Origin: Deltaproteobacteria bacterium RIFCSPLOWO2_12_FULL_60_19
GTDB taxonomy: Bacteria > Desulfobacterota > Binatia > UBA9968
Reading direction: 5' to 3'
NCBI GenBank assembly: GCA_001798595.1
Contig: MGSS01000134.1
Coordinates: forward strand, 1-43,933
Length of the DNA stretch: 43,933 nt
Position numbers and translations under genes: made by a program. How positions within the stretch are numbered: position 1 is the first letter of the stretch; each line of letters starts with the position of its first letter. This document shows, one piece after another, positions 16,564-43,580 of the stretch. Below the pieces are notes generated by a model. The model worked only from the letters and a program-made list of their open reading frames with translations. It had not been told where the DNA came from and did no database searches.

Positions 16564-17139
16564 TTACACGCCGGGCTTTTCGGCGCGGCTCGCGAACCGG
16601 TCGCGGCGATTCCTCTGCCAGCATTCTTCGTTGTGCTCTCGGCAAACCGGCGCTTCTTCTCCATAGGTCGTGGTTGACAGTCGGCCTTCGGCAATCCCTA
16701 GAGTGACCAGATAGTCTTTGGCAGCTTGTGCTCGCTTAGCCCCAAGGGCTAAATTGTATTGCGTCGTTCCGCGCTCGTCGCAGTGACCTTCGATCTCCAC
16801 GCGCACCGCCGGATTTTTCTTGAGCCATTCCGCGTTGGCCTTTAGCGTGGTGCGGGCGTCGGGGCGGAGATAGTACTTGTCGAAATCGAAGTATATCTCT
16901 TTTAAGGGGCTGTCCTTCGGAGTCACCGGCGCCTGGCCTCGCCGTAGCTGCTCCAGGCTGCCGGGCGTCTGAGCCGTCTGAATTTCGGGCTTGATCGCTT
17001 TCGGAGACGCCCGCCCCGACGCGGCCGAGGCTTCCGGCTTGGCCGTCGTCGAAGAACAGCCGCTCAACCCGAGGACTAACAGGAACACCGAACCCCAAAA
17101 AATTGCCGCCGACATCTTCAGCAAATGTTTCTTATTCAT
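16564..17139 (-). CDS. pal: Pal-type OmpA lipoprotein (operon A)
   Basis: A 191-residue lipoprotein. The signal peptide ends with the lipobox LGLSGC. After a low-complexity linker the OmpA/Pal peptidoglycan-binding domain has IYFDFDKYYLRPDA, VRVEIEGHCDERGTTQYNLALG and the final CWQRNRRDRF. The EGHCDERGT core with the diaminopimelate-binding Asp and Arg is intact. The start at 17139 follows GGAGGGA. It is the last gene of operon A, 45 bp after the binding-protein gene. No tolA/tolB/tolQ/tolR genes are adjacent, so it is probably not the housekeeping Pal. A second Pal gene sits in operon B. Confidence 0.88.
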   Translation of the reverse strand: MNKKHLLKMSAAIFWGSVFLLVLGLSGCSSTTAKPEASAASGRASPKAIKPEIQTAQTPGSLEQLRRGQAPVTPKDSPLKEIYFDFDKYYLRPDARTTLKANAEWLKKNPAVRVEIEGHCDERGTTQYNLALGAKRAQAAKDYLVTLGIAEGRLSTTTYGEEAPVCREHNEECWQRNRRDRFASRAEKPGV

Positions 17140-17184
17140 GGTGCTTCCCTCCTTTTCAGTCCAGCGAACTGTTTTCAAAGTCGA

Positions 17185-18204
17185 TTAGCGCAGGTCAAAA
17201 ATCTGCTGGTAAAGCTTTACCGTCTCGGAGAAACTCCGGTATTCCTCCGGGTGTTCCACGATCCGCTTGTATCCCTTGAACAACCGCGGCGGATCGGCTT
17301 CGACATTCTCGTGGACCGGTATGCGGCGGAAGCCGACGAGCATCTTTTGCCCCCGCTTGGAAAGAAGAAAATCGATGAAGAGCTTCGCGGCGTTCGGATG
17401 GGGCGCCTTGGCAGCCAGCATGAGCGGGTTGACCTGGACCGGCACCGGCTCCAGCGGCACCCAGTCGATCGGAGCCCCGCGAGAGGTCTCCCGTTGAATC
17501 GTCGGGGCATAGGCGACGATGAGATCGTATTCTCCCGCTGCGGTGAGTTGCACCCGGTTCGTGTTGCCGCGCATCACGACCGGCTCTTGCGCGGCGAGCT
17601 TCTTAAAGTAAGCAACCGCCTTTTCCTTTCCCCACGCTTTGATGAGCCCCGAGAGCAGACCGTAGGCCTCGTCGTCGATGGAGATTGTCTTACCTTTCCA
17701 CCGCGGCTCCAGCAATTGTTCGTACGTTTTCGGAACGTCCTCTTTTTTGACACGGTTGGTGTTGTAGCCCAAGACGTAAGGGTTCACGTAATAGGCCGTC
17801 CAATAACCTTCCGCGTCAACCAGATCTTGAGCGATGAACTTGCTCTGCGGCGAGCGGTAAGACGCCAGGAGCTTGGCGTCCATCAACGGGAGAACCATCT
17901 CTCCTCTCCCCGACACCACGTCCCAGGCATGGAGCCCGCCCCGGGCCTCGGTCTGAATCTTGTTCAGCAACGGCCCGCCTCCTGTGCGGAACAGGTCGAC
18001 CTTGAGAAACGGATATTTTTTCTGGAACTTTTCGACCACCTCTTCGCTCTGGGATAAGGTCATAGTGGTGTAGTAGACCGCTTTTCCTTCCTGTCTCGCA
18101 GCCTCAACCAAATTCGAACCCGCGTCCGCTTGCGCCTGCGAAATGCTCGGCAGCGCCATTACTACGAACAACGATGCAAGCAACGTCACACCTTTCGTCT
18201 TCAT
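17185..18204 (-). CDS. Orphan extracellular solute-binding protein (Fe/thiamine type)
   Basis: A 339-residue exported protein with a signal peptide ending SISQAQA. The mature part has ARQEGKAVYYTTMT, then SGRGEMVLPLMDAKLLA and YYVNPYVLGYNTNRV, matching the Fbp/AfuA-like binding-protein family (ABC class 1), whose members bind ferric iron, thiamine, phosphonates or similar ligands. AAGGAGG lies upstream of the ATG. No permease or ATPase gene is nearby. Instead it sits between an exported beta-sandwich protein and a Pal lipoprotein in operon A, so it may serve as a sensor or scavenger, or work with a transporter elsewhere. Confidence 0.85.
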   Translation of the reverse strand: MKTKGVTLLASLFVVMALPSISQAQADAGSNLVEAARQEGKAVYYTTMTLSQSEEVVEKFQKKYPFLKVDLFRTGGGPLLNKIQTEARGGLHAWDVVSGRGEMVLPLMDAKLLASYRSPQSKFIAQDLVDAEGYWTAYYVNPYVLGYNTNRVKKEDVPKTYEQLLEPRWKGKTISIDDEAYGLLSGLIKAWGKEKAVAYFKKLAAQEPVVMRGNTNRVQLTAAGEYDLIVAYAPTIQRETSRGAPIDWVPLEPVPVQVNPLMLAAKAPHPNAAKLFIDFLLSKRGQKMLVGFRRIPVHENVEADPPRLFKGYKRIVEHPEEYRSFSETVKLYQQIFDLR

Positions 18205-18229
18205 GTTCGCCTCCTTCGAGCCGGTTTTG

Positions 18230-18724
18230 CTATTGCTTATTGGTGGGCCCCAAGCCCAGATCCCAGTGCATGATTCTTGAGAGAGGTTGATCCCCTGTTA
18301 GGATTAGATTTTTAATCTCTTTTGCCCGTCCCTCGAACATCGCTTTGACCGTGTACTTCCCTGGGGGAAGTTGAACATAAAACCACGGGCCGTTGGTGGT
18401 CGCGCCCATGATCTGCTTGCCGTCTTGATTTTCTATGACCAGCTTTCCTTCGGAGAGATACTGGCCGGAATTTACGGCAAAAGAGAGCCGGAGATTGTAT
18501 CGAGGGGCCTGGCTTTTCATGAAATCCCGTTCCTCGGTCCCAATACCTCCGGACATGTACCGGAGGCCGCCTTCAGAATTCCCTTGGACAACACCCGGGG
18601 GGTTGTCCGGCACGTAGGCTTTGGAGACAACGACTCCCAAGACCCAGGGCGAAAGAAGGCTTAGGCTAAGAACAACCGCCACTACCCCGTCGGTCGAAAT
18701 TCTTGATTTGGACGTCTTAATCAT
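18230..18724 (-). CDS. Exported carboxypeptidase-regulatory-like protein
   Basis: A 164-residue protein with an N-terminal hydrophobic segment (VVAVVLSLSLLSPWVLGVVV) that is a signal peptide or anchor. The C-terminal half contains VIENQDGKQIMGATTNGPWFY and VQLPPGKYTVKAMFEG, the pattern of carboxypeptidase regulatory-like or transthyretin-like beta-sandwich domains. No catalytic residues are seen. AAGGAGGGG lies upstream of the ATG. It is third in operon A, 12 bp after the receiver-like gene and 25 bp before the binding-protein gene. A structural or ligand-binding role in the periplasm is inferred. Confidence 0.6.
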   Translation of the reverse strand: MIKTSKSRISTDGVVAVVLSLSLLSPWVLGVVVSKAYVPDNPPGVVQGNSEGGLRYMSGGIGTEERDFMKSQAPRYNLRLSFAVNSGQYLSEGKLVIENQDGKQIMGATTNGPWFYVQLPPGKYTVKAMFEGRAKEIKNLILTGDQPLSRIMHWDLGLGPTNKQ

Positions 18725-18736
18725 ATTTTCCCCTCC

Positions 18737-19213
18737 TTAAGGTTTCTCAACGCGGGCGCTCTTTTCTTGCTCTTCCGACCTGCGAATCGATCTAACGTAA
18801 TTCTCGAGTTCTGCGACGGTAAGCCATCGTGTTTTTGGCATCGCTTCGGCGACGGCTTTTATCACGACCGCGCCCCGAGCTATATCGTCCCGGGAAGCGA
18901 GGATGATGATCCGCATCGACCGGTTGATGTCCCTTAGATTGAAGACCGTTTCCGCCAAATCCATGTTGCTTCCGGTCGACACGAGAACGGCTGCATCGAA
19001 GTATTCTCGGTCTGCCTGCGCCACCGCTGCCCCACCGCTTTTCACCTGGGTCACCGAACAGCCTGCGACTTGGAGACATTTTTCTACCTCGTTGCAATCC
19101 TCGGAGCAGACAAGCATGACCTTTTGCAACCTCGCAACAGATGCCGGTGAGGCGGGGGCGTTTCCCTTATCATACCCCAGCCACTCTTGCGGTCTCGGCC
19201 TTCGGGTCAACAC
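18737..19213 (-). CDS. Degenerate receiver-like protein (operon A)
   Basis: A 158-residue protein with a response-regulator-like core: KVMLVCSEDCNEVEKCLQVAG, then YFDAAVLVSTGSNM, MRIIILASRDD, and an alpha/beta repeat to the end. At the position of the phosphoacceptor Asp (the residue ending strand 3 in DxxLxD) it has Ser/Thr (VLVSTGS), so it should not be phosphorylated in the classical way. The start is a GTG at 19213 that shares one base with the upstream TAG stop (TAGTG), and GGGGAGGA lies eight bases before it. It has no output domain. Similar Asp-less receiver proteins occur in operon B. Confidence 0.65.
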   Translation of the reverse strand: MLTRRPRPQEWLGYDKGNAPASPASVARLQKVMLVCSEDCNEVEKCLQVAGCSVTQVKSGGAAVAQADREYFDAAVLVSTGSNMDLAETVFNLRDINRSMRIIILASRDDIARGAVVIKAVAEAMPKTRWLTVAELENYVRSIRRSEEQEKSARVEKP

Positions 19214-19656
19214 TATAAAAATCCTCCCCTCATCGTGACGCGGGACGAGACACCCGATAGTTGGGCGCGTGTGCGTGCGCGAAGTCTTGACAGCCGTATC
19301 CGGTTACGACCCGCAAGCTTCCTGGTTTTCCATCGCTTCAATCCCTGACGAATGTGCTCGGGACTCCACCCTAAGGCCTCACAGATATTCTCAAAGGAAA
19401 AAAGCCAATCGTCGTCAGCTTCAAATATCCAATGCTTCGCCGCGCGGTATGTTTCGGCCCTCTTTCTGTCGCTGGCGAGCAGAAACTCCTGGAAGCAAAA
19501 AACGGCGTCCTCCAGGAGGGCGAACATCAACTGTTTCTCAGGCGTGAAAAGATCTTCCCTGCGCACCGTGCGAAGATACTGGTGCGGCGTAAGAGTATCC
19601 GGCTCGCGGAAAACGGGGAGTGCGCCCCCGGGGTTGGGTTTGTTCAGATAGTCCAT
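19213..19656 (-). CDS. Hypothetical HTH-like protein, first gene of operon A
   Basis: A 147-residue soluble protein. Residues about 40-75 are helical (LLEDAVFCFQEFLLASDRKR), followed by WIFEADDDWLFSFENICEALG and SPEHIRQGLKRWKTRK, which resembles a helix-turn-helix. The C-terminus is very basic. I recognise no named family; similar proteins without annotation occur in Deltaproteobacteria-like and Nitrospirae-like genomes as far as I recall. It is the first gene behind a candidate sigma-54 promoter, leaving only about 14 nt of leader and no clear Shine-Dalgarno. It overlaps the next gene by one base. DNA or RNA binding is a guess. Confidence 0.6.
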   Translation of the reverse strand: MDYLNKPNPGGALPVFREPDTLTPHQYLRTVRREDLFTPEKQLMFALLEDAVFCFQEFLLASDRKRAETYRAAKHWIFEADDDWLFSFENICEALGWSPEHIRQGLKRWKTRKLAGRNRIRLSRLRARTRAQLSGVSSRVTMRGGFL

Positions 19657-19681
19657 GAGGCTGATGTACCAAGTCTACAAC

Positions 19682-19696
19682 GCAAGTCGGATGCCA
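19682..19696 (-). promoter_or_regulatory. Candidate sigma-54 promoter of operon A
   Basis: On the minus strand the sequence is TGGCATCCGACTTGC, matching the -24/-12 consensus TGGCAC-N5-TTGC with one mismatch and exact GG-GC spacing. Transcription would start near 19670, 14 bases before the ATG at 19656. It lies in the 337-bp gap between operon A and a sigma-54 activator gene, which is the expected arrangement. Confidence 0.75.
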
Positions 19697-19776
19697 TCGG
19701 GAAAAGGTCCGGAAAAACAGCGACTTACAACAGACCCCTGGGACGCGATTAAGAGAGCGGAGGTCAGACTGCATGA

Positions 19777-19797
19777 AGTGTGCACGAAAAGCACACT
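19777..19797. promoter_or_regulatory. Candidate enhancer (activator-binding) palindrome of operon A
   Basis: AGTGTGC and GCACACT are exact reverse complements separated by seven bases. The centre is about 117 bp upstream of the predicted sigma-54 start site, the usual distance for an enhancer-binding protein. A related copy (TGTGCA, eight bases, ACAC) lies at 19917-19934, and a looser one (TGCACA then CACACA) at 19822-19840. The rest of the 19657-19993 gap shows no coding signal. Confidence 0.6.
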
Positions 19798-19993
19798 AAG
19801 CCCCCTTGACGGGAGGCTGGATGCACAGATAGTTCACACAGATCAGTAAAGCGGAGTTGGTAGCGCGACCGGCGCCTGGCATGAGGCAGCGGAGGAAACG
19901 GAAAGGTGTCTACTCCTGTGCAGGTTGTTTACACATTCATAGATTTGCACTCCGCGGTTGGGCCGTCTTGATTCGCTCGGCTGGAGGCTTCAT

Positions 19994-21030
19994 TTACGAC
20001 AAACGGTACCTGTTGATTTTATTGTAGAGGGCGCGGCGGCTGATGCCCAGAATGGCTGCCGCCTTTTTCTTGTTCCCTCCCGTCGAGGCGAGAGTCATTC
20101 GGATACACTCCTTCTCCACCGCCGCCAGATTCATGCCGAGGCGGATCGGGAACATTTGGGAATCGGAGTCCTTGCTCATCCCAGCCGCCTCGCGAATTCT
20201 AGCCGGGATAAGATCGGCTGTCAGCTCCTCTCCGGGGGCGATCAAAATCGCGCGTTGGATGACGTTCTTCAGCTCCCGCACATTGCCAGGCCACGAATAG
20301 TGCCTGAGACATCGATAGCTTTCCGGCGAAACTCGTTTTACGTCTTTCTGGTAGAGTGTGTTGAATTGGGAGACAAAATAGCCGGTAAGAAGCGTTGTAC
20401 CACCGGGACGATCTCTCAGCGCGGGAACGTTGATGCGGAAAACATCGAGCCGGTAGAAAAGGTCCCGCCGAAACTTTCCCTGCGCGACGGCCTTCTCAAG
20501 ATTCTCGTTCGTGGCTGCTATCACCCGAACATCGACTCGAATATCCTTTTCTCTCCCCCCACCCGCCGGAATGTTTTTGTTTCCAGCCCCCGGAGCAAGC
20601 TAACCTGGCTCTTCTCGTCCATGGTGGTGATTTCATCGAGGAAAATCGTCCCTTTGTGAGCCTGCTCGAAAACGCCCTTATGTATCCCGGCAGCGCCGGT
20701 GTACGCACCCTTTTCGTGCCCGAAGAACTCGCTCGCAATAAGCTCCGGAGTCATGGCCCCGGCATTGACCGGTATATAGGGAAAGTCCTTCCTCTGGCTT
20801 CTCTTATGGATCCCGAGCGCAAGAAGGTCTTTTCCCGTTCCGGTCTCCCCGGTAATCAATACTGGAATATCCGTTGCTGCCGCGTCAACGGCTCGCTGGA
20901 TCACCGCGTGCATTGGCAAACTGACTGCAACTATACCTTCGAATTCAATCGGCAGGGATATGGCGCCATCGGGGAAATTTTTTTCACCAGCCATAGGTTG
21001 TCTTTTCAACATGGACATATAGGGGCCCAC
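19994..21030 (-). pseudogene. Sigma-54 activator (PspF-like AAA+ plus Fis HTH), frameshifted
   Basis: Two overlapping frames together encode one sigma-54-dependent activator of about 345 residues without a receiver domain. The first part (21030 to about 20540) has Walker A GETGTGKD, the sigma-54 contact loop GAYTGA and Walker B GTIFLDEIT, then FRRVGGEKRI. The second (from about 20540 to 19994) resumes at RVDVRVIAATNENLE, with arginine-finger region FRRDLFYRLDVFRI, WPGNVRELKN and a C-terminal Fis-type helix-turn-helix (KKKAAAILGISRRALYNKI). The join at about 20540 needs two bases removed: AGGATATTCGAG would be in frame as AGGATTCGAG, so an AT duplication is the simplest explanation. It could be a true mutation or an assembly error. 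It should activate operon A. Confidence 0.85.
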
Positions 21031-21156: not shown

Positions 21157-21582
21157 TTACCCTACGGAAAGCTTGTACAGCATCCAGTAAACGATCACGC
21201 CGGTCACCGAGACATAGAACCAGAGCGGGAGCGTCCAGCGAGCGATGCGCTTGTGGCGCTCAAAGTTACCTTTGAGCGCGCGCGTAACGGTGATCAAGAC
21301 CAGCGGTAGGATGGCTATCGCCAGGATCGTATGGGAGATGAGGATCGTAAAATAGACTACACGAATCCAACCCTGCCCCCTGAATGGCACCGAGCCGACG
21401 TTGTAGTGGTAGACCAGATAGGAGGCGAGAAAGAGCGTTGACGTGAGCAGGGCCGAAAGCATGCAGAGCCGGTGCAACGCGACCCGGCCCTTGCGAATAA
21501 ACAGGTATCCCGTCGCCAGCAGCAAGGCGCTGGCGGTGTTTAACGCCGCGTTGACGCCGGGAAGATCGGAAAGCGCAATCAA
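21157..21582 (-). CDS. DUF420 membrane protein (CtaM-like)
   Basis: A protein of about 141 residues with four helices. The N-terminal SDLPGVNAALNTASALLLATGY, then GRVALHRLCMLSALL and the C-terminal RHKRIARWTLPLWFYVSVTGVIVYWMLY match DUF420, a family linked to cytochrome oxidase maturation. The start is uncertain: a TTG at 21582 gives a family-like N-terminus, but no ribosome-binding site is visible. It begins 23 bp after the subunit IV gene and is the last gene of the oxidase operon. The conserved His residues could bind heme or copper; this is inference. Confidence 0.8.
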   Translation of the reverse strand: MIALSDLPGVNAALNTASALLLATGYLFIRKGRVALHRLCMLSALLTSTLFLASYLVYHYNVGSVPFRGQGWIRVVYFTILISHTILAIAILPLVLITVTRALKGNFERHKRIARWTLPLWFYVSVTGVIVYWMLYKLSVG

Positions 21583-21605
21583 GGCAACCGCGAAGTGTGC
21601 GGAAA

Positions 21606-21878
21606 TTATGGATGGATATCGGGAGACAGCATCAGGATCAGAAAGAGACACAGGAGCAGCGGCGTCACGGCGATCCACCCCAGCGTCGCGCGCTCGAATT
21701 TGAGATGCATGAAGTAGAGCGCCACAAGCGTCGCCTTGGTCAAGGCGAGTCCGACCAGCAGGATGACGATGATGAGCTTGGCGATGGGCATGTAGATCAC
21801 GGCGATCTCGATAATCGTGAGCGCCAGCAGCCACCAGAAAACGCCCATGTAATTGGGTTCCGCGTGTGTCGTTGCCAT
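21606..21878 (-). CDS. ctaF: Cytochrome c oxidase subunit IV
   Basis: A 90-residue protein with three hydrophobic helices: VFWWLLALTIIEIAVIYM, LIIVILLVGLALTKATLVALYFMHLKFE and WIAVTPLLLCLFLILML. The TKATLVALYFMHLK segment is typical of the prokaryotic subunit IV (COX4_pro). GGGGAGACTGAGG precedes the ATG. It follows the subunit III gene in the oxidase operon and is a small stabilising subunit of the aa3 complex. Confidence 0.88.
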   Translation of the reverse strand: MATTHAEPNYMGVFWWLLALTIIEIAVIYMPIAKLIIVILLVGLALTKATLVALYFMHLKFERATLGWIAVTPLLLCLFLILMLSPDIHP

Positions 21879-21907
21879 CCTCAGTCTCCCCTTGTCCGAT
21901 TGTCCGA

Positions 21908-22516
21908 TTATATCAGATAGACGAAAGTGAAAATCAAAATCCAAACCAGGTCCACGAAGTGCCAATACAAGCCGGCGATCTCGACGTGCTTGGCGCCGTA
22001 GCGCCCGCGCGAGCAGGCGGCTAAAACGCACGAGTTGTAGATCACTCCTCCGGTCACGTGCATCCCGTGAAAGCCGGTGAGCACGAAGAACGTGGTGGCG
22101 AACAGATGCGTGCTGAAAGAGAAGCCGGCCTCCGGCAAGGTGTGCCCGATCAGATGGGTCCACTCGTAGGCTTGCAGTCCCAGGAACCCGGCCCCTCCCA
22201 GAATCGTGAGCCAGAGAAATTTCTTGAAGCCCGGCATATCGCCTCTTTTGATCGCCGACAGCGCCTGAACCATCGTGACGCTGCTCACGATCAACAGGAA
22301 AGTCATGAAAGCCGTCAGGTTGATCCCCAAGACTGCCGAGGGCACCGGCCAGTTCGCGCTGGCGTGGCGCAGAAGTCCGTAGCCGACAATCAGCCCGCCG
22401 AACGACATGGCGTCGCCGGCGAGGAATAACCACATGCCGAGCTTGCCCCAACTCTCGGGTGTTAAAGGGGTCTCTGCGGGTTCCGCAGAGACATGCATCA
22501 CAGCAGCTTCACTCAT
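21908..22516 (-). CDS. ctaE: Cytochrome c oxidase subunit III (copy 1)
   Basis: A 202-residue five-helix subunit III. WGKLGMWLFLAGDAMSFGGLIVGY, FLGLQAYEWTHLI, TFFVLTGFHGMHVTGGVIY and YWHFVDLVWILIFTFVYLI are the family motifs (GxHxxHV and WHFVDxVW). Its start overlaps the stop of the small CAVC protein gene by four bases (ATGA). This copy carries the complete canonical C-terminal WHFVDxVWxxxF motif, so it is the more likely structural subunit III of the oxidase encoded here. Confidence 0.92.
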   Translation of the reverse strand: MSEAAVMHVSAEPAETPLTPESWGKLGMWLFLAGDAMSFGGLIVGYGLLRHASANWPVPSAVLGINLTAFMTFLLIVSSVTMVQALSAIKRGDMPGFKKFLWLTILGGAGFLGLQAYEWTHLIGHTLPEAGFSFSTHLFATTFFVLTGFHGMHVTGGVIYNSCVLAACSRGRYGAKHVEIAGLYWHFVDLVWILIFTFVYLI

Positions 22517-22803
22517 CTTCCACTCTCCTTATGGATCCAAGTCAGGGGCGCGATCGTCGTTCTCGCGCTCGGCTCGCTCGCCCGCTTTGTGCTCCGCCGG
22601 TAGTTATAAAACAGAAACGCGCCGATCGAGCCGAGCACAGTGTAGGGCATCGCCATCAGAAACAGCACGCTCCAGTTGAAGGCATCCGTCAGCGGGTCGT
22701 CTGCCGAGCCGCTCAGGCACACGGCGCAGGCATGCGCCGCGCTATGGAACAAAACCGGCGCAGCGGCGGCGAGCAACGCAGATAGAAAAAAGCTCAATTT
22801 CAT
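22513..22803 (-). CDS. Small exported CAVC-motif membrane protein of oxidase operon
   Basis: A 96-residue protein with a signal peptide (MKLSFFLSALLAAAAPVLF) followed by HACAVCLSGSADD, then one membrane helix (NWSVLFLMAMPYTVLGSIGAFLFY) and a basic tail. The two closely spaced cysteines just after the likely cleavage site would face the periplasm. It sits between the two subunit III genes and overlaps the second by four bases. No named family is recalled, though similar small proteins occur in oxidase operons. The CxxC pair suggests metal or thiol chemistry, perhaps copper delivery, but this is inference. Confidence 0.7.
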   Translation of the reverse strand: MKLSFFLSALLAAAAPVLFHSAAHACAVCLSGSADDPLTDAFNWSVLFLMAMPYTVLGSIGAFLFYNYRRSTKRASEPSARTTIAPLTWIHKESGR

Positions 22804-22858
22804 AACGCGAAATAATTGAAAATTATCTTATCGCCCTGGAGCTGTCAACAGAACTCCA

Positions 22859-23539
22859 TCAAGATAAATAGACCAGGCCGTACAGCACCGGCCACAGCCC
22901 GACCACAAAGGTCCAATACATCGCGCAGAGCTGAACGCCGGCGTAGCTGCGCTCTGAGAAGCGCCCCCGGCGCGCCTGCAACAGGACGGCGATGAGCCAA
23001 ACCGCCGCGCCAAAGACGTGAACGGCGTGACAGCCGATCAACGTGTAAAACGTCGCGCCATAGACGCCGCTCGACAGCGTGAGCCCAAAGCCGATCAGAC
23101 GGAGCCACTCGTAGCCCTGGATGCCGAGAAAAACCGTTCCGAGCAACGCCGTGATCGACAGCCATTGCACGAGCCGAGTCGGCTTTCCCCGCCGCGCGGC
23201 CATGAGCGCCAGGCGCATCGTCAACCCGCTGAGCAGAAGGATGACAGTGTTTATGGCTGTGACGCCCACCGGCAGGCGCGGCTGAAACGGCGGCGGCCAA
23301 GCGGGGCTTGCGAGGCGAAAGACGATGAATGCCCCGATCAGGCCGGCGAAGAACATTACCTCTGCGGCCAGGAACATCAGCAGAGCCAGCCGCGCATTGC
23401 TGACAGCCGGCTGCGTCGAGGTGACGCCGGTCGGCGGCTCTTCTCCTCCGCCCAAAGCCGGGGTTCGAAGCTCCTCGGCAACCTCCGGCTCAATCAGTCT
23501 GCGCGCGACCGCTTCTCGTACCATTTCCCAATCCCTCAT
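22859..23539 (-). CDS. Cytochrome c oxidase subunit III (copy 2)
   Basis: A 226-residue heme-copper oxidase subunit III with a soluble N-terminal extension of about 45 residues and five helices. ALLMFLAAEVMFFAGLIGAFIVFRL, FLGIQGYEWLRLIGFG and FYTLIGCHAVHVFGAAVW are typical. The last helix reads MYWTFVVGLWPVLYGLVYL, closer to the divergent subunit III seen in nitric oxide reductase-like and alternative oxidases. It lies 35 bp after the farnesyltransferase gene. Having two divergent subunit III genes in one operon is uncommon but is known in some bacterial oxidase operons. Confidence 0.88.
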   Translation of the reverse strand: MRDWEMVREAVARRLIEPEVAEELRTPALGGGEEPPTGVTSTQPAVSNARLALLMFLAAEVMFFAGLIGAFIVFRLASPAWPPPFQPRLPVGVTAINTVILLLSGLTMRLALMAARRGKPTRLVQWLSITALLGTVFLGIQGYEWLRLIGFGLTLSSGVYGATFYTLIGCHAVHVFGAAVWLIAVLLQARRGRFSERSYAGVQLCAMYWTFVVGLWPVLYGLVYLS

Positions 23540-23574
23540 CCCCTAGCCGTCATCATCTGCCGAATGAGTGCCCA

Positions 23575-24486
23575 TCAAGGCGACGGCGGCATCCGGTTAA
23601 GCGCCATCACCGCCAGCAACACCGGCAAATAAATCAGCGAGGCGAACAGGAGCTGGCGCGCCGCTTTAAGATTTTGCGCGACGGCAAGCCGCACGCTGTA
23701 AGCCAACATTACCCCTCCGAGCAGGAGCGCCGCCAAAAAGTAGATCCCTCCCGCCAGGCCCATCAACGTCGGCAGCAGGCTTACGGCGAGCAAGGCGAGA
23801 CAATAGCCGACGCTCTGGCGGCCGGTGCTTGCGCCGTCGGGCTCGATCACGGGAAGAAATCGAATCCCGGCCCGCGCGAAATCGTCCCGATAGAGACAGG
23901 CGATCGCCAGCGTATGCGGAATCTGCCAGAGAAAAAGGATCGCAAACAGAATCCACGCGCCGAGGCCGAACTCGCCGCGGGCCGCGGTCCAGCCGATGAC
24001 CGGCGGCAGCGCGCCGGGAATCGCGCCGACGATGCCGCAGAGCGAGCTTCGCTGCTTGAGCGGCGTATAGGCGAGCAGATAGCTGGCCGCGATCGTCGCC
24101 GTCACCAGCGCGCTTATGGCGTTGACCGCCACGGCCAAAATCGACAGTCCGGCCAAAGTCACAAGCACTCCGAACACCAACGCCTCCGTGGGCTGAATCC
24201 GCCCGTCCGGCAAAGGACGGCGGCGGGTGCGCTCCATGAGCGAGTCGGAGCCGCGCTCCATAAATTGGTTGAGGGCGAGCGTGCCGCCCGAGGCGAGCGC
24301 GGTCCCGGCGATCGTCGCGATCAATCGCGCAACCGCCGGCGTCGAATCCGCGCCGAGATAGTAACCGACGCACGTCGTCACCAAAACCATCAACGAGACG
24401 CGCGGCTTGGTCAGCTCGAGAAAATCCGCCAACCTCCGGTAGCCGCTGCTGAGCGAGACAGCCTGAGTTCCCGCGGTAAGACTCAT
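23575..24486 (-). CDS. ctaB: Protoheme IX farnesyltransferase (heme O synthase)
   Basis: A 303-residue UbiA-family prenyltransferase with about nine helices. The first aspartate-rich-type motif appears as NQFMERGSDSLMERTRRRPLP, and the second region has YRDDFARAGIRFLPV. LELTKPRVSLMVLVTTCVGY at the N-terminus is characteristic of CtaB/CyoE. It attaches a farnesyl group to heme B to give heme O, the substrate of the neighbouring heme A synthase. Its start overlaps the end of the heme A synthase gene by four bases. Confidence 0.93.
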   Translation of the reverse strand: MSLTAGTQAVSLSSGYRRLADFLELTKPRVSLMVLVTTCVGYYLGADSTPAVARLIATIAGTALASGGTLALNQFMERGSDSLMERTRRRPLPDGRIQPTEALVFGVLVTLAGLSILAVAVNAISALVTATIAASYLLAYTPLKQRSSLCGIVGAIPGALPPVIGWTAARGEFGLGAWILFAILFLWQIPHTLAIACLYRDDFARAGIRFLPVIEPDGASTGRQSVGYCLALLAVSLLPTLMGLAGGIYFLAALLLGGVMLAYSVRLAVAQNLKAARQLLFASLIYLPVLLAVMALNRMPPSP

Positions 24487-25460
24487 ACCGACGCCCTCCC
24501 CGGTCCGCTCCCCAGCGCGATCGGTGTCGCGATCTCCTGGCCCGCCGGGCCGCGCTCAACAAGCAGACCGAAAGACCTGAGGGTCACAACAAGACTCGTC
24601 GCCAGCATGAGCGCGCCCACCACGACGTGGCCGGTCCTGAGTAGAACCGTCAGCGTCGCGGGAAGGGTCATCACGAATTTTCCCAGATAGGCCCCCAGGC
24701 CAAGCCCAAGTTGACTCAGCAGGAGCCCGTTGAGCAAAAGCGCCGGCCGGAACAAGGCCGGCTGGTCGAGATGGCGCCGGAAGACGCGCAGCCCGACGAG
24801 GATCACGTGGAGCGAAGCGAGAAAGGCAAAAACCAGGTGCATGTCGAGCATGGCGCCGGTGTGGCGCAGCATGGCGCCGAAGAAAACCTGCGCGTAGATC
24901 AGCCCGACCGTCGCGACTCCCATCCGCTGCAAGCGTCCGGCGTCCGCGGCCTCAAGTTTCATCGGCCGTTCTCTCCAACCGCGGGAGGTAAAGAGAGCGA
25001 GGCTCACGGTCAGGGCGAAGAAGGCCTGGGCCAGACAGGCGTGAACCACCGCCAGCGTCTGCTCGACCAAAACGACTCTCAAGCCGCCTATGACGCCTTG
25101 GATGATAACCAAAGCGAGCGCCGCCGCTCCCAGCCAGCCGAGCCACCTCTGCGGCTCGCGGAACCAAAGCGCAACGGCCAACAGAGTCGTCAGGAAGCCG
25201 ACTCCCGAGGCGACCAGCCGGTGGCTGTGCTCGAAAAAAATATTTCCCACCATCTTGGACCACGGATAGAGAAATGGATTGTAACCGAAAGTCGTCGGCC
25301 AGTCCGGCACGGCCAGGCCCGCCCCCTTGCTCGTGACCAGGCCGCCGATAAAGAGCAGGGGAATGGTGCAGATCGCCGTGAGCAGGGCGAGTCTATGCGG
25401 CCACACCGGAAAGGATGAGGGATGAGGGATGAGGGATGAACCCCGCGTTGCGCCTTCCAC
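24483..25460 (-). CDS. ctaA: Heme A synthase (CtaA/COX15)
   Basis: A protein of up to 325 residues with eight helices. GGLVTSKGAGLAVPDWPTTFGY near the N-terminus is the CtaA/COX15 signature. Heme-ligand histidines lie in FEHSHRLVAS, VVHACLAQ, MLRHTGAMLDMHLVFA and RTGHVVVGA. It oxidises heme O to heme A for the aa3 oxidase. Start choice is uncertain: a GTG at 25460 gives an odd Pro/Ser-rich N-terminus encoded by a 7-bp tandem repeat, while a GTG at 25406 starts just before the first helix. A GGAAAG lies before the 25460 start. Confidence 0.92.
   Translation of the reverse strand: MEGATRGSSLIPHPSSFPVWPHRLALLTAICTIPLLFIGGLVTSKGAGLAVPDWPTTFGYNPFLYPWSKMVGNIFFEHSHRLVASGVGFLTTLLAVALWFREPQRWLGWLGAAALALVIIQGVIGGLRVVLVEQTLAVVHACLAQAFFALTVSLALFTSRGWRERPMKLEAADAGRLQRMGVATVGLIYAQVFFGAMLRHTGAMLDMHLVFAFLASLHVILVGLRVFRRHLDQPALFRPALLLNGLLLSQLGLGLGAYLGKFVMTLPATLTVLLRTGHVVVGALMLATSLVVTLRSFGLLVERGPAGQEIATPIALGSGPGRASV
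25413..25440. repeat. 7-bp tandem repeat (GGATGAG x4)
   Basis: Three exact GGATGAG units and a fourth GGATGAA lie end to end on the plus strand. On the minus strand they encode part of the possible N-terminus of heme A synthase (IPHPSSF), between its two candidate start codons. The unit length is not a multiple of three, so a copy-number change would shift the frame of the longer product. Confidence 0.8.
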
Positions 25461-25481
25461 CGTCAGCTTTCCGCCTTCCCT

Positions 25482-27230: not shown

Positions 27231-27241
27231 CTTTCACCTCT

Positions 27242-27334
27242 GTTCGTGGTTCGTGCTCGTTTGTCGTGCTCGTGTTTGGCAAGGGTAGCTCGCGCTCCGT
27301 CTTCACGAACACGAGCCACGATCACGAGCACGGG
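27242..27334. repeat. Imperfect inverted repeat between ctaC and ctaD
   Basis: The 106-bp gap between the subunit II stop and the subunit I start holds two arms made of TCGTG/CACGA units: about 27249-27276 (CGTGCTCGTTTGTCGTGCTC and following) and 27303-27334 (ending CGATCACGAGCACGGG). They are imperfect reverse complements of about 26 bp and could form a stem in the mRNA. No T-tract follows. Confidence 0.6.
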
Positions 27335-27336
27335 AT

Positions 27337-27996
27337 TTACTTCCGGGGCCAGCTCTCTTCCACCCACTTGGCGTACTCCTCGGGCGTGTGCACGTGGAGC
27401 CAGCCGCGCATTCCGGAGTGGCCGAAGCCGCACAACTCGGCGCAGGGCAGCTCGTACTTGCCGGGCTTCACCGCCTGAAACCACACGAGAATATCGCGCC
27501 CGGGAACGGAATCCTGCTTGACGCGCAGGTGGGGCAGAAAAAAGCTGTGGATCACGTCCTTTGACTTGAGGATCACATGGACGACCTTGTTCACCGGGAC
27601 GTAGATGTCGTTCTCGGCTTGAAGATCGTCTTCCGTGCCGAACTTTCCATCGGGGCCGGGATAAAGGATCTCCCAGTTGAATTGCTTGGCGGTCACCTGG
27701 AGCTGAACGTCGGGCGGGGGCGGGTGCGACTTGATTTTTCCCCAGCTCGAGACGCTCGCAAAGGACAAACCGACAAAGACGATCGCCGGGATCACCGTCC
27801 AGGTGATTTCGAGCGCCGTGCTGCCGTGCGTGTAGGTGGCGCGGCGGCCTTCGCGCTGGCGGTACAGGATGAGGAAAAGAATCATCAGCACCGTCACCAG
27901 GATGAAGGCCGCTCCCGTGATGTAGTAGATGACGTAGAAAAGATAGTCGATCTCTCCCCCGAAGGTGGAGACGTTTTCCGGCAACCAACTCATCAT
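27337..27996 (-). CDS. ctaC: Cytochrome c oxidase subunit II
   Basis: A 219-residue protein with two N-terminal helices (FYVIYYITGAAFILVTVLMI and TWTVIPAIVFVGLSFASV) and a periplasmic cupredoxin domain. The CuA site is complete: IHSFFLPHLRVKQD supplies the first His, and CAELCGFGHSGM supplies two Cys, His and Met. QFNWEILYPG is the aromatic electron-entry region. There is no fused cytochrome c domain, so electrons arrive from a separate donor. It is the first gene of the oxidase operon and is divergent from the ArsR-family gene, with 154 bp between them. Confidence 0.95.
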   Translation of the reverse strand: MMSWLPENVSTFGGEIDYLFYVIYYITGAAFILVTVLMILFLILYRQREGRRATYTHGSTALEITWTVIPAIVFVGLSFASVSSWGKIKSHPPPPDVQLQVTAKQFNWEILYPGPDGKFGTEDDLQAENDIYVPVNKVVHVILKSKDVIHSFFLPHLRVKQDSVPGRDILVWFQAVKPGKYELPCAELCGFGHSGMRGWLHVHTPEEYAKWVEESWPRK

Positions 27997-37998: not shown

Positions 37999-38550
37999 TT
38001 AGTTGGTGGGAGCTGTTTTTATCGCGAAGTGGGCGCGCCGGTTCTTTGCCCGGCAGGTTTCATTCTGCTCCTTGCAGAGAGGCAGCTCCTCGCCGTAACT
38101 GATAATAGAGAGACGGTCAGACCCAATGCCTGAGGCAACGAGAAACTGCTTCGCCGCGTCCGCCCTCCGGACTCCCAAAGCGAGGTTATAGTCGCTAGTG
38201 CCCCGTTCGTCGCAGTGTCCTTCGATCTCGATTTTGACCTGTGGATTCGCCTTTAGCCAACCGGCGTGCTGTTTAAGGCTCGCCCGCGCATCGGGCCGGA
38301 TGGAATAGCGATCAAAGTCAAAATTCACATCCGCCAAGGGGCCCGTCTCCCCACCTTTCCCCAAAGTCCCCTTTTGGAACGCCTCAAGGCTTGACCCCGT
38401 TTTCTGGGATGACGCCGCTGTTTTTGCCGCGGTCCCCTTCGTAGGCTTGGACGCTGCGGAAGTCGAGCAACCTGCCGCGGACAATCCCATAACGAGCGCG
38501 AAAACTATCCCCCGAAAACCCATTCTCAAGTCGCAAAGGTTTTTCTCCAT
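37999..38550 (-). CDS. pal: Pal-type OmpA lipoprotein (operon B)
   Basis: A 183-residue lipoprotein. The signal peptide ends in the lipobox GLSAAGC, followed by a Thr/Ala/Ser-rich linker and an OmpA/Pal domain with VNFDFDRYSIRPDARASLKQ, VKIEIEGHCDERGTSDYNLALG and CRAKNRRAHF. The peptidoglycan-binding Asp and Arg are intact. AAAGGAGGAGG lies before the ATG at 38550. It is a paralogue of the operon A Pal (same IEGHCDERGT core and the same layout), yet neither lies with tol genes. Confidence 0.9.
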   Translation of the reverse strand: MEKNLCDLRMGFRGIVFALVMGLSAAGCSTSAASKPTKGTAAKTAASSQKTGSSLEAFQKGTLGKGGETGPLADVNFDFDRYSIRPDARASLKQHAGWLKANPQVKIEIEGHCDERGTSDYNLALGVRRADAAKQFLVASGIGSDRLSIISYGEELPLCKEQNETCRAKNRRAHFAIKTAPTN

Positions 38551-38697
38551 CTTCCTCCTCCTTTCGCTTTCCAATTGTGCATCTTCCAGGTATCCCGCAA
38601 GTCTGAACGTTAATCTCGTGGACATCGCTGATGTGCCCCCTATCTTCCCTGCCGAGTATCAGGGAAGGGAAGTCACTGAATCAAAACCAACAAACTA

Positions 38698-39020: not shown

Positions 39021-39473
39021 TTATATCCTCCTTGCTTTTTCAGATTCAGTGGTATGAGTTATCGATGGCCCCAGTCCATCCAAGACTTTTCTGATGGCTT
39101 CCGGCTTTATTGGGAGAAAGAGAAAGGCCGTGGCCCCTGCTTCGAGGGCCTTTACAATCGGCTCATATCCGGGTACAGACGTTGCGACTATAACCGGGCG
39201 GCCGTCCGCCAAGGCCCGGCATTCCTGTAATTGGGCTACATCTCTCGTACTTGGATGGTGAAGATGGACGATAATGCAATGGGGGGGATACGGATAGACC
39301 AAGCCCCATGCCTTTTGCGGCGACTCGCAGGTAACCACTTCGTACCCTTCCTGTTGAAGAACGGTAAAAAGCTGGGTATCTGGGTGCTCACCGATCAACA
39401 AAATTTTTTTTCCCATCTCTATCGTTTCTCTTCTCATCACACCGGCTTCGTCTTTTGGTCTTCTCTTCTTCAT
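39021..39473 (-). CDS. Asp-less receiver-like protein C (operon B)
   Basis: A protein of about 150 residues with a receiver fold: KKILLIGEHPDTQLFTVLQQEGYEV, then PHCIIVHLHHPSTRD, PVIVATSVPG and AFLFLPIKPEAIRKVLDGL. The strand 3 Asp is His (IIVHLHH), and the acidic pair is GE rather than DD; the KP of strand 5 and Thr/Ser of strand 4 remain. It starts with an ATG that shares a base with the previous stop (TGATG at 39473); an internal ATG at 39416 is the alternative and fits its paralogues better. No output domain is present. Sequence similarity to the two upstream proteins shows a recent gene triplication. Confidence 0.75.
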   Translation of the reverse strand: MKKRRPKDEAGVMRRETIEMGKKILLIGEHPDTQLFTVLQQEGYEVVTCESPQKAWGLVYPYPPHCIIVHLHHPSTRDVAQLQECRALADGRPVIVATSVPGYEPIVKALEAGATAFLFLPIKPEAIRKVLDGLGPSITHTTESEKARRI

Positions 39474-39925
39474 CAAGACCACTTTTCATTGAGCGATGAC
39501 TCCAGCTCGTCAAAGACTTCTCTTAGCGCATTGCGTTCTAATGGATGGAGGAAGGCTGCGGCCACCTTCTCCAGTGCTTTCACGACCACCCCGCCCGCAA
39601 AGATGGGCCTAGCAACGATAATAGGGGGCCCCCCGGCCAGGACGGCGCATCCCTGAAGTGCGGAGATATCCCCTTTACTTAGGTTGCTGAGATGGACGAT
39701 GATAAAGTCAGGGCGGAACCTCCAGACCAAACCCCATGCCTTTTGGGGAGACTCACACGCTATGACTTCATATCCTTCCTGTTGGAGGGCGATGAACAGT
39801 GACATCTCCGATTGATCGTCGATGAGTAGGATTTTTTTCCGGAATGGCACCATTCTTTTGTTTGCGAGGTTGTCGGAGACTTTTTTTGAATAATCACCCG
39901 CGATTGCCGAAGCGGTTGTAGTCAT
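39473..39925 (-). CDS. Asp-less receiver-like protein B (operon B)
   Basis: A 150-residue receiver-like protein with about 25 extra N-terminal residues. KKILLIDDQSEMSLFIALQQEGYEV keeps the acidic DD, but the phosphoacceptor region reads PDFIIVHLSNLS, with His in place of Asp. The strand 4 and strand 5 residues also differ (IIVARPIF and AFLHPLERNAL), so the Thr and Lys of the phosphorylation site are gone as well. It shares CESPQKAWGLV exactly with protein C. The stop overlaps the start of protein C by one base. A start at 39853 would remove the N-terminal extension. Confidence 0.75.
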   Translation of the reverse strand: MTTTASAIAGDYSKKVSDNLANKRMVPFRKKILLIDDQSEMSLFIALQQEGYEVIACESPQKAWGLVWRFRPDFIIVHLSNLSKGDISALQGCAVLAGGPPIIVARPIFAGGVVVKALEKVAAAFLHPLERNALREVFDELESSLNEKWS

Positions 39926-40015
39926 CAGCGGCTTCTAAAGAGAATTTCTTGGGTCCTTTTTCCCCGATCGTAAAAATTCGCGCGGCCAATGAGGCCTCAA
40001 GGATTCTTGATCTAA

Positions 40016-40423
40016 TCAGTTCCTAGACTCTTTATTCCTAGCCGAAGAAAATTGGTCTTCATCCTCAGATAGCTCCACGCTCCGTAAGGTTTCTCTAATG
40101 GTTTGTGGTTTCGCAGGAAGAACGAGAAAAGACGCTGCCTTTTCTTTTACCGCTTTAACAAGAACTTCCTGCGCAAGAAGCGAAACGGTAGCGACGACAG
40201 GCACCTTTCCGGCCAGGGCCACGCACTCGTCCAAAATGGCTACTTCTTTTGGGTAGCGCAGCTGAACGATGATGAGGTGCGGCTTGTATAAAGGATACAC
40301 GCCCCGGGCTCTGTAAGGCGATTCAAGAGCGGCAACCTCGTAACCTTCTTGTCCCAGCCAGGCGAAAAGCTCAATGTCTGGCTTCTCGCCAATCAACAAA
40401 ACTCTTTTCTTCTCCTCTGCCAT
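40016..40423 (-). CDS. Asp-less receiver-like protein A (operon B)
   Basis: A 135-residue receiver-like protein: KKRVLLIGEKPDIELFAWLGQEGYEV, then PHLIIVQLRYPKEVAIL, VPVVATVSLL and SFLVLPAKPQTIRETL. The phosphoacceptor Asp is replaced by Gln (IIVQL) and the acidic pair is GE; Thr and KP are kept. The C-terminus is charged (SEDEDQFSSARNKESRN). It is the second gene of operon B, 100 bp after the cupredoxin gene. The three paralogues A, B and C share spacing and motifs but each has its own substitution at the key site. Confidence 0.75.
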   Translation of the reverse strand: MAEEKKRVLLIGEKPDIELFAWLGQEGYEVAALESPYRARGVYPLYKPHLIIVQLRYPKEVAILDECVALAGKVPVVATVSLLAQEVLVKAVKEKAASFLVLPAKPQTIRETLRSVELSEDEDQFSSARNKESRN

Positions 40424-41240: not shown

Positions 41241-41255
41241 GCAAAAGAAGTGCCA
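41241..41255 (-). promoter_or_regulatory. Candidate sigma-54 promoter of operon B
   Basis: The minus strand reads TGGCACTTCTTTTGC, an exact match to the -24/-12 consensus TGGCAC-N5-TTGC. Transcription would start near 41229, leaving a leader of about 195 nt before the cupredoxin gene. The adjacent upstream gene encodes an NtrC-like activator. The 413-bp gap 41034-41446 otherwise holds only the leader and the palindromes described separately. Confidence 0.85.
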
Positions 41256-41446: not shown

Positions 41447-42826
41447 CTAAATCTCCTGTTTGGCCACGACCTTAGAACTTGGCAGGTTAAGTTTCTTGAT
41501 CTTGAGATAGAGGGTCCGAAGTCCTATCTTGAGCGCCCTCGCAGCTTCTTTTTTGGTGGGAAAATACTCCAAATAATGACGGATAATTTCCTTCTCAGCT
41601 TCCTCCATCGTGATTCCGACAGGGAGTCTCATTTCTTTGCTGCTCTGGCCTCCACGAATGTTTTCTGGGAGATTATCCATGTCCAAGGTATCTCCATCGG
41701 CCATCAGAGCCATGCTTTCCACGACGTTCTTAAGCTCTCTAACATTGCCCGGCCAGGGATAATTTTGCAGGCGCGCAAGGACGTCCGGAGTGATCTTGCG
41801 AATCGATTTTCCGCTGGTTCTCCCCAACTCGCCGACAAAAAATTTGATCAGGAAAGGGATGTCTTCCTTGCGCTCGCGCAGCGGCGGAACTGTAAGGGTC
41901 ACAACCTTGATCCGGTAGTAAAGGTCTTCCCGGAATCTCCGGGCCTTAACCTCGTTTTCCAGGTTTACATTGGTCGCGGAGAGGAGCCGAAGATTAGTTC
42001 TAATTTTCTTCGTTCCTCCGAGCCTACGGAACTCCTTTCGCTCCAACGCTCGCAACAGCTTGGCTTGGGATCTGAGTCCCATGTCATTGATCTCGTCGAG
42101 AAAAAGCGTCCCCTCGTTCGCCGTCTCAAAGACCCCGCTCTTCCGTTCATTAGCCCCGGTGAAAGCCCCTCTCTCGTGTCCGAACAGTTCGTTCTCCAAC
42201 AGATCATCGGAGAGGGTGGCGCAGTTGACCGGGACAAACGGCCTGTCTCTCCTCGGACTTAACCGATGAATTTCGCGGGCGATGACTTCTTTCCCTGAGC
42301 CGCTTTCGCCGCAGAGCAGGATGTTGCTGTCGTAGGGCGCTACTCTTTCCAAGAGGACAAAAAGCTCCCTCATCGCGGGAGAAACGCCCAGAACCACGTT
42401 CTGAGGCTGAGGCCCCCAGGTCGAAGGCTCCGAGACCTGCGTTCTGTGTTGCCGATCCCACTTTTTCAGCGCCGAGTCCAAAGCTGCCGTGATATCTTTT
42501 ACTGTTAGGGGTTTCGTCAAGAAATCGGCCGCGCCCATCTTCATGGCCTGGATGGCCAAGCTCATCGTCCCGAAGGCCGTAACAAAAATGACGGGGCGAT
42601 CGAGGCCGTTTTTCTTAACATAAGCGAGGAGGTTGAGTCCCTCGCCGTCCGGGAGCTTGAGTTCGGTAACGACAGCCGCCACTTCGCGATCGTTCAGTAG
42701 GGGGAGAGCGGATCTCTGACTACTTGCTTCGACCACTTCAAAACCGGTTTTTTTCAGCGCGCCGGCCAGGCTTTCCCGGCTTTCTTGATGATCTTCGACT
42801 ACCAGGATCTTTCCTCGCAGCAGCAC
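41447..42826 (-). CDS. NtrC-like sigma-54 activator with Asp-to-Glu receiver
   Basis: A 459-residue protein with receiver, AAA+ and Fis-type HTH domains. The receiver (ILVVEDHQESRESL) keeps the acidic pair, the strand 4 Thr (VTAFG) and Lys (LTKPL), but the phosphoacceptor position reads VVTELKLPDGEG, with Glu55 where Asp is expected. Glu can mimic a phosphorylated Asp, so the protein may be permanently active or controlled another way. The AAA+ domain is intact: Walker A GESGSGKE, GAFTGA loop, Walker B GTLFLDEIND, WPGNVRELKN. The HTH is KKEAARALKIGLRTLYLKI. It starts with a GTG at 42826 after AGGTGG, seven bases beyond the kinase stop. It should drive operon B. Confidence 0.92.
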   Translation of the reverse strand: MLLRGKILVVEDHQESRESLAGALKKTGFEVVEASSQRSALPLLNDREVAAVVTELKLPDGEGLNLLAYVKKNGLDRPVIFVTAFGTMSLAIQAMKMGAADFLTKPLTVKDITAALDSALKKWDRQHRTQVSEPSTWGPQPQNVVLGVSPAMRELFVLLERVAPYDSNILLCGESGSGKEVIAREIHRLSPRRDRPFVPVNCATLSDDLLENELFGHERGAFTGANERKSGVFETANEGTLFLDEINDMGLRSQAKLLRALERKEFRRLGGTKKIRTNLRLLSATNVNLENEVKARRFREDLYYRIKVVTLTVPPLRERKEDIPFLIKFFVGELGRTSGKSIRKITPDVLARLQNYPWPGNVRELKNVVESMALMADGDTLDMDNLPENIRGGQSSKEMRLPVGITMEEAEKEIIRHYLEYFPTKKEAARALKIGLRTLYLKIKKLNLPSSKVVAKQEI

Positions 42827-42833
42827 CTGCCAC

Positions 42834-43580
42834 CTACACTCGCGTTGAAGTAGGTAAAGAGATGAAGAAGGTGGTCCCTTTACCCGGTTCGGATTTGAAG
42901 GAAAATTCGCCTCGATGCATTTTCACAATCTCCAGGGCCAGCGGCAGACCTAGCCCGGCGCATGCCTCCTTTGTCGAAAAAAACGGCTTAAAAATGTGAT
43001 CGCGATGGTCGAGAGAGATCCCCTCGCCGGTATCCGTGACGCTCATCGTAAGATGATCGCTTTCCAACTCTGTAGCGAGAGTAATGCAACCCTTGGGCGG
43101 GCTGGCGTCGATGGCATTCAACAGAACGTTTAAGATTGCCTGCTTAATCTGTACCGGGTCCGCTTGTATGGCAGGCAACCTTTCTTCAAGATCCAGCTTG
43201 ACCGTGACGTCCTTCTTGGATGACGCGGCCCTTGAAAAGGTTTCCACCTCCGCAAGTAACGCATTGGCGTCGACCGTTGTGATCTGCGGCTTCGGGAGAT
43301 CGGTGAGACGAAGAACCTCGCAGAGCAGGGAATCCAGTTCGGCAATGGCATTTCGGATTCTCTTGAGTCGATCAGGAATACCCTTGTTGTCCTCAATTTT
43401 GAGTTCGGCGATCTCGTCATCCAAGTTGTCCAGATTTAGCTGGAGAGCGTTTAGCGGGTTGCGAACCCTTTGAACAATTCCCCTCGTCATCGCTCTGAGA
43501 GGAAGAATGCCTCTCTGGGATTGCATGAAAATAAGCATACCACTGCCGGAACCAAATGGGAATTTACGCCAAGATTGCAA
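42834..43580 (-). CDS. Histidine-kinase-like protein lacking the phosphoacceptor His
   Basis: A protein of about 248 residues with no sensor domain. The dimerisation helix reads MTRGIVQRVRNPLNALQLNL, where kinases have AHEIRNPLNAI: the phosphoacceptor His is Gln37 (CAA at 43470-43472) and the following Glu is Arg. The helix contains no other His. The ATP-binding domain looks intact: QAILNVLLNAIDA (N box), VTDTGEGIS (G1), HIFKPFFSTKE (F box) and GLGLPLALEIV (G2). The start is a TTG at 43580 after GGGAG; ATGs at 43538 and 43526 are alternatives. It is upstream of, and nearly joined to, the activator gene. It may bind ATP and control the activator without phosphotransfer. Confidence 0.85.
   Translation of the reverse strand: MQSWRKFPFGSGSGMLIFMQSQRGILPLRAMTRGIVQRVRNPLNALQLNLDNLDDEIAELKIEDNKGIPDRLKRIRNAIAELDSLLCEVLRLTDLPKPQITTVDANALLAEVETFSRAASSKKDVTVKLDLEERLPAIQADPVQIKQAILNVLLNAIDASPPKGCITLATELESDHLTMSVTDTGEGISLDHRDHIFKPFFSTKEACAGLGLPLALEIVKMHRGEFSFKSEPGKGTTFFISLPTSTRV

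Follow-up and report, generated by a model that had tools for sequence, protein, structure and literature searches.

Sigma-54 promoters have the consensus TGGCAY-N5-TTGC, and NtrC-family sigma-54 activators of the DctD type have transport operons adjacent to them. Among receivers without the phosphorylated aspartate (Asp), the regulator RitR is reported to sense redox. Here, we describe operon A, which lies in a 43,933-nucleotide stretch of DNA from Deltaproteobacteria bacterium RIFCSPLOWO2_12_FULL_60_19 (hereafter, the window; contig C134 of a genome that totals 4.19 Mb over 162 contigs). Operon A encodes a stand-alone Asp-less receiver, REC158, behind a sigma-54 promoter element. In a 2025 perspective, on/off switching of pseudo-receivers is called a mystery; Asp is given as missing from 2.0% of receivers and histidine (His) from 0.9% of HisKA domains (PMC12632262). 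Serine (Ser) takes the position in 15% of Asp-less receiver domains, according to another study (PMC4395418). A third describes Osp, a single-domain response-regulator-like protein that inhibits the kinase CckA and whose expression is controlled by the regulator of the same pathway (PMC9430884). Among openly licensed PMC papers, we found none on Binatia with sigma-54; of those on Tct transporters with sigma-54, or on at least two of Pal, sigma-54 and pseudo-receivers, none looked relevant. We conclude that operon A is a real, conserved control module of little-studied environmental bacteria.

A preliminary description of this DNA had given operon A a -24/-12 element, an inverted repeat at about -117, an adjacent AAA+ sigma-54 activator, an Asp-less receiver-like protein, exported proteins, and a terminal Pal lipoprotein. 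Our analysis bore out this anatomy. The features are as follows.

21030 down to 16564, minus strand: operon A, comprising, in reading order, activator fragments, -24/-12 site, P147, REC158, P164, solute-binding protein (SBP), and PalA
20521..21030, minus strand: AAA+ sigma-54 activator, N-terminal fragment (Pfam Sigma54_activat, 6.3e-45)
19994..20524, minus strand: the same activator, C-terminal fragment, in a different frame (AAA_lid_14, 8.1e-22; HTH_8, 4.6e-16)
19821..19841, minus strand: degenerate second enhancer-like repeat at about -161, seen by eye and unscored by the repeat finder
19777..19797, minus strand: enhancer-like inverted repeat AGTGTGC-N7-GCACACT, centred at -117, from the repeat finder
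19682..19696, minus strand: -24/-12 element TGGCATCCGACTTGC (TGGCAT-N5-TTGC), 25 bp upstream of the first gene
19213..19656, minus strand: P147, small and helical, from a widespread family without a name (AlphaFold predicted local distance difference test score, pLDDT, 80.8)
18737..19213, minus strand: REC158, of the REC-A family, stand-alone receiver fold as modelled, Ser79 at the phospho-Asp position
18230..18724, minus strand: P164, exported protein (CarboxypepD_reg, below cut-off)
17185..18204, minus strand: periplasmic SBP of the SBP_bac_6 type (PF13343, 4.8e-25), in an operon without a permease gene
16564..17139, minus strand: PalA, peptidoglycan-associated lipoprotein paralogue (TIGR02802, 9.6e-40)

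Genes in the operon overlap, or are spaced by 45 bp or less, with PalA counted from the ATG at 17139. The promoter element, upstream of the first gene, fits the sigma-54 consensus. By eye, SBP, P164 and PalA each carry an export signal or lipobox (LGLSGC in PalA). PalA also exceeds the cut-off for the Pal equivalog (134.9 versus 125.35 bits).

We searched for REC158 relatives in 58 genomes: 25 of the window's family (its own and 24 others) and 33 from outside. Fourteen loci were recovered, in nine genomes, all within the family (its own and eight of the 24 others); the 33 outside genomes had none. We refer to the encoded proteins as REC-A and to the surrounding genes as module A. Note that gene calls in the relatives are open reading frames picked by hand. 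An activator gene is upstream of REC-A at 12 of the 14 loci, 11 on mapped stretches and one (L033) as a fragment at a contig edge; at L024 the separation is 1.6 kb. P147 is upstream in nine loci and P164 downstream in four, including the window. A -24/-12 site with up to two mismatches is present in the 200 bp ahead of the first gene at 12/14 loci, where 3.8% per locus is expected, and a site with no more than one mismatch at 8/14, versus 0.8%; the loci are mutually related, so these counts are not independent. For L028, the distance was taken from a start chosen inside a longer frame. We conclude that activator, sigma-54 site and REC-A recur as one unit. Seven loci with REC-A relatives, all in metagenome-assembled genomes labelled Deltaproteobacteria bacterium or Candidatus Binatia bacterium, came from scanning named genomes with one short peptide pattern.

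The repeats upstream of the promoter were also compared. By eye, GTGTG...CACAC repeats are paired in L025, L026, L028, L029, and L030, and single or degenerate elsewhere. In the window, the left half of the degenerate repeat resembles the perfect repeat of L025. A combined repeat-plus-promoter pattern was found in 7/25 family genomes; the reversed-pattern control found none in 25. These matches make up eight distinct sites. Two are promoters of REC-A operons (the window and G007:C27), and a third, in G014, falls between activator and P147. Five are located away from such modules: one precedes a P164-like gene, two precede a small lipoprotein-like gene with a YflT-like gene (below the Pfam cut-off), and two precede genes without assigned identity. 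We conclude that the pattern is real, yet neither restricted to REC-A modules nor strict in most of them.

We turn next to REC158. Its AlphaFold model, built on 14 relatives, has a complete receiver fold (pLDDT 82.1; predicted template modelling score 0.72). The best PDB match is a receiver (Foldseek E 5.6e-6), receivers are also matched by profile, and FrzS is among the sequence matches. The predicted fold of REC158 is the receiver (beta-alpha)5 fold. Against the Pfam receiver family PF00072 it scores 18.4 bits, short of the 30.2 cut-off. Judged by sequence, REC158 is a divergent receiver relative rather than a clear member of that family. At the phospho-Asp position, 13 of the 14 REC-A proteins have Ser and one has alanine; in REC158, Cys36 and Ser37 replace the acidic pair. 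The cysteines (Cys) invite a different reading of the protein, as a redox or metal sensor that informs the activator through Cys36, 40, 46, and 52, all around the old active site. All four are present in six of the 14 proteins, Cys36 occupies one acidic active-site position, and the fold matches include RitR (4lzl) and a streptococcal redox sensor (5u8m). In addition, NifS-like genes are near 20 of the 24 best non-self P147 relatives (L058-L081). However, eight proteins lack the full set of Cys, none of the 14 has Cys at the phospho-Asp position, and ordinary receivers predominate among the fold matches. We consider such a sensor unlikely, though a live alternative.

P147 itself matches no Pfam family over cut-off, and no NCBIfam model at E 0.1. 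Its family has matches in all 58 genomes searched. An attempt to draw a function from structure gave no PDB fold at E<=0.001, and the best sequence match was at E 0.47.

The activator of operon A is split. In the N-terminal fragment, Walker motifs and a GAYTGA loop are apparent by eye. An AAA+ domain with a GAFTGA-like loop, and a Fis helix-turn-helix, are present but distributed over two frames, so the gene is not one intact open frame. The overlapping frames together match one Sigma54_activat / AAA_lid / Fis-HTH protein, encoded in a single frame in relatives. The change of frame, seen by eye, falls at or just past a run of six G. Furthermore, in an alignment with longer relatives, the N-terminal receiver domain found in nine related activators is missing; it is also missing from L031. 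Hence, operon A could be a decaying remnant in this genome, its activator truncated and frameshifted, and its Pal and SBP genes mere passengers. The two frames and the missing domain fit such decay. Conversely, there is a single break, near a homopolymer, with AAA+ motifs kept, which points to a possible assembly error; the downstream frames are open, and L031 likewise does without the N-terminal domain. We therefore regard decay as rather improbable. The activator may nevertheless be damaged in this genome.

The genome has a single rpoN gene and, not counting the split activator gene, encodes 16 full-length Sigma54_activat domains. The nearest relative of operon A in its own genome is on contig C97, and comprises an activator, a sigma-54 site, REC-A, two TctC genes, and a TctA-TctB fusion. 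Given a damaged operon A activator, the intact C97 paralogue could drive both operons. Another activator of this genome, also on C97 (L179 1081-2439), has glycine (Gly) at the receiver phosphosite. Tct genes are frequent in relatives. Of nine other REC-A loci with some neighbours scanned, seven have TctC or TctA (L023, L025, L026, L028, L029, L030, and L033). TctA is upstream in L023 and L030, and TctC is 5.4 kb off in L029, so not all of these genes are within the REC-A operon. At L032 there is an NMT1-type binding protein.

How might these parts work together? The reading that we favour, with confidence about evenly balanced, is that operon A is a lineage-specific type of sigma-54 operon, for transport or exported proteins, in which REC-A would serve as a feedback partner that contacts the activator directly. 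The dedicated AAA+ activator would bind the upstream GTGTG...CACAC repeats (at about -117, plus a second at about -161 should the degenerate copy qualify) and open the -24/-12 promoter. P147, where present, and REC-A would be made first. Variable cargo would follow, with Tct genes on C97 and at several related loci, and in operon A a secreted protein, SBP, and a Pal paralogue. REC-A would then contact the activator, protein to protein, giving feedback in place of phosphorylation. The analysis bears out the anatomy, the conservation, the predicted receiver fold and the missing Asp, whereas cellular use of sigma-54, activator binding at the repeats, and the activator as binding partner of REC-A are inferred. 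That REC-A would act as feedback is suggested by the layout and by analogy with Osp.

Several observations weigh against this. The module is narrow, because a search of 395 genomes of the phylum, besides the window's own, gave a single weak REC-A-like match, outside the family (E 4.4e-11; L219, G247:C17:43907-44176), among the best 10 or fewer candidates per genome at E 1e-10. At L023 and L030, no activator was seen on the available stretch. At two other loci (L031 and L033), the 200 bp ahead of the first gene contain no -24/-12 site with up to two mismatches. The strict repeat-plus-promoter pattern is at the REC-A promoter of just 2/14 loci, and 5/8 of its sites are outside REC-A modules. In the window, the frameshifted activator means that operon A may be unregulated or silent. 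Finally, six of the nine related activators with a receiver domain keep the phosphosite Asp, and at L024 a GAF-HisKA kinase, with its His, is 0.75 kb upstream of the activator. Phosphorylation control is possible in module A for these last two reasons. Note that no kinase-like match was found beside operon A in the window; among the 13 other REC-A loci, L024 alone has one.

The preliminary description took operon A to be a second module of the same design as operon B, also in the window, the two forming a recurring 'sigma-54 / pseudo-receiver / Pal' system. The features of operon B are listed below.

42834..43538, minus strand: HK_B, histidine-kinase-like, glutamine (Gln) in place of the phospho-His
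41447..42826, minus strand: NtrC_B, activator, receiver Asp replaced by glutamate (Glu)
41241..41255, minus strand: -24/-12 element TGGCACTTCTTTTGC
39021..40423, minus strand: RecB1-3, three tandem Asp-less receivers (40016-40423, 39473-39925, 39021-39482)
37999..38625, minus strand: PalB

Between the two operons is a cytochrome c oxidase cluster (COX1, COX2, COX3, CtaA, and UbiA; window 21157-27996). In G012, oxidase genes come after operon B (L083 3588-9742).

In outline, the operons are alike. Both have an activator, a -24/-12 element, and stand-alone Asp-less receivers, and conservation of the two gene sets extends past this genome: REC-A loci are in eight other genomes, and B-type loci are in relatives. 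The latter have receivers, a Pal, and a pentapeptide protein, with an activator and NifS in some. This part of the earlier claim stands. Our results do not support the further idea that a single system is present twice, as operon A and as operon B. In a tree of receivers, REC-A and REC-B are two clades (support 100/99 and 100/100), although deep forks are weak (63/76) and the bootstrap is unsettled; all 14 REC-A sequences were kept, and three of 18 REC-B rows, short or from L090, were dropped. By hhalign, REC-A and REC-B match 12 ordinary receivers with probabilities of 95.6 and 98.7, versus 49.4 for each other. These 12 are activator-type receivers of this genome, and include two without Asp (NtrC_B and L179). 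Recent duplication, considered as an origin for A and B, is weakened or rejected by this tree and profile comparison. The A and B activators are about 39% identical. The cargo differs, as do the upstream repeats (by eye, GTGTG-N9-CACAC in A, and TGCAA-N3-TTGCA-like in B). Nor is the promoter uniform: with L089 scanned instead of L082, a -24/-12 site at up to two mismatches was found in just three of eight B loci (the window, L083, and L085), and five have none.

Pal, the remaining shared component, is also unevenly distributed. Eight B-type loci extend from receiver to pentapeptide gene; six have a Pal, and L082 and L088 do not. Fragments L089 and L090 do not cover this interval and are outside the count. 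Conversely, Pal is beside REC-A in none of the 13 other loci, five of which (L027, L031, L032, L034, and L035) have sequence reaching only 0.55-2.6 kb beyond REC-A. In the Pal tree, from which five of 76 sequences (below 150 residues) were dropped, the six B Pals are one clade (100/99). PalA pairs not with PalB but with a solitary, unlinked Pal of G016 (99/97). In the approximately unbiased (AU) test, a PalA plus PalB clade is 13.5 log units worse and is disfavoured, not rejected (p 0.134). Pooling PalA, PalB, and the solitary sigma-54 Pals gave a marginal result (p 0.042). The unrejected clade and the similar layouts are what speak for a single system. Set against the separate receiver clades, the differing repeats and cargo, and the distribution of Pal, they leave it very unlikely. 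Operons A and B are more likely look-alikes, and their resemblance is most simply explained by convergence; operon B most likely arrived at its comparable layout with different parts.

PalA was also considered as the housekeeping Tol-Pal gene and set aside: the Tol-linked Pal of this genome sits on C27, with TolB_N, ExbB-type, and ExbD-type neighbours. PalA is 55% identical to it. The AU test rejects a grouping of PalA and every Tol Pal as one clade (p 5e-5), which carries little weight, since Tol Pals are themselves not one clade. The preliminary description had named two results that would count against it, a lack of conservation and Pals grouping with housekeeping copies; neither was cleanly seen. 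The tree includes 42 Pals outside the Tol, A and B contexts, and five of these (L161-L165) have a -24/-12 site, at no more than one mismatch, close to where the gene is called to begin. Of the five solitary Pals, four are in one clade (97/88). In the 5-14 kb surrounding them, we recognised neither an activator nor a receiver gene. Among 22 Tol-linked Pals, none has such a site within 120 bp; L135 has one at 181 bp. At L134, the site is inside the called frame, so the gene probably begins downstream of the called position. In the window's family, sigma-54 seems to have gained control of Pal paralogues on more than one occasion, and to that extent the earlier idea linking sigma-54 and Pal survives.

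The regulators of operon B have lost residues normally phosphorylated. In five of five HK_B orthologues, including the window's, the phospho-His position has Gln (four) or arginine (one). Of 12 more distant homologues in the same alignment, 11 keep His, and the twelfth, L179, is empty at this column. In NtrC_B, Glu replaces Asp in six of six (the same five loci and L083), whereas Asp is kept in 11 of 12 homologues, the exception being L179, with Gly. Reportedly, Klose et al. found in 1993 that Glu at the NtrC phosphosite mimics phosphorylation. ATP-binding boxes of both regulators look intact by eye. It is possible, though we hold it only tentatively, that the window's bacterial family runs 'two-component' control free of phosphorylation: a His-less kinase, Glu activator and tandem Asp-less receivers, kept together, in B; in A, an Asp-less receiver and an activator that in the window lacks its receiver domain. 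Signals would pass by ATP- or redox-dependent protein contacts alone, and a layout of this kind would have evolved two or more times. This is less likely because, at L024 in module A, an ordinary His-bearing kinase is near the activator.

Together, the operons provide two conserved families of stand-alone Asp-less receivers, each encoded close to a candidate partner, making the question of pseudo-receiver switching testable. A sigma-54 promoter precedes such receivers mostly in module A and, in some genomes, in module B. Module B adds a kinase and activator pair with both phosphorylation sites lost. We conclude that module A is a new arrangement of known parts, and that the regulators of operon B are a stranger, yet well-conserved, oddity.

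The known parts are readily recognised. DctD-type systems share with module A the activator, upstream repeats, -24/-12 promoter, and transport genes; module A differs in adding an Asp-less receiver and P147, and has a kinase-like neighbour only at L024. PalA, like the Pal of Tol-Pal systems, is a Pal equivalog, but is located outside the Tol cluster. FrzS and RitR, like REC-A, have a receiver fold without the phospho-Asp. REC-A, in contrast, is stand-alone and scores below the Pfam receiver cut-off; its gene follows a sigma-54 promoter and has the probable activator as a neighbour. Osp is likewise a stand-alone receiver-like protein, expressed under the pathway that it restrains. Its target is a kinase, whereas the neighbour of REC-A is an AAA+ activator, and the likeness between the two is one of layout.

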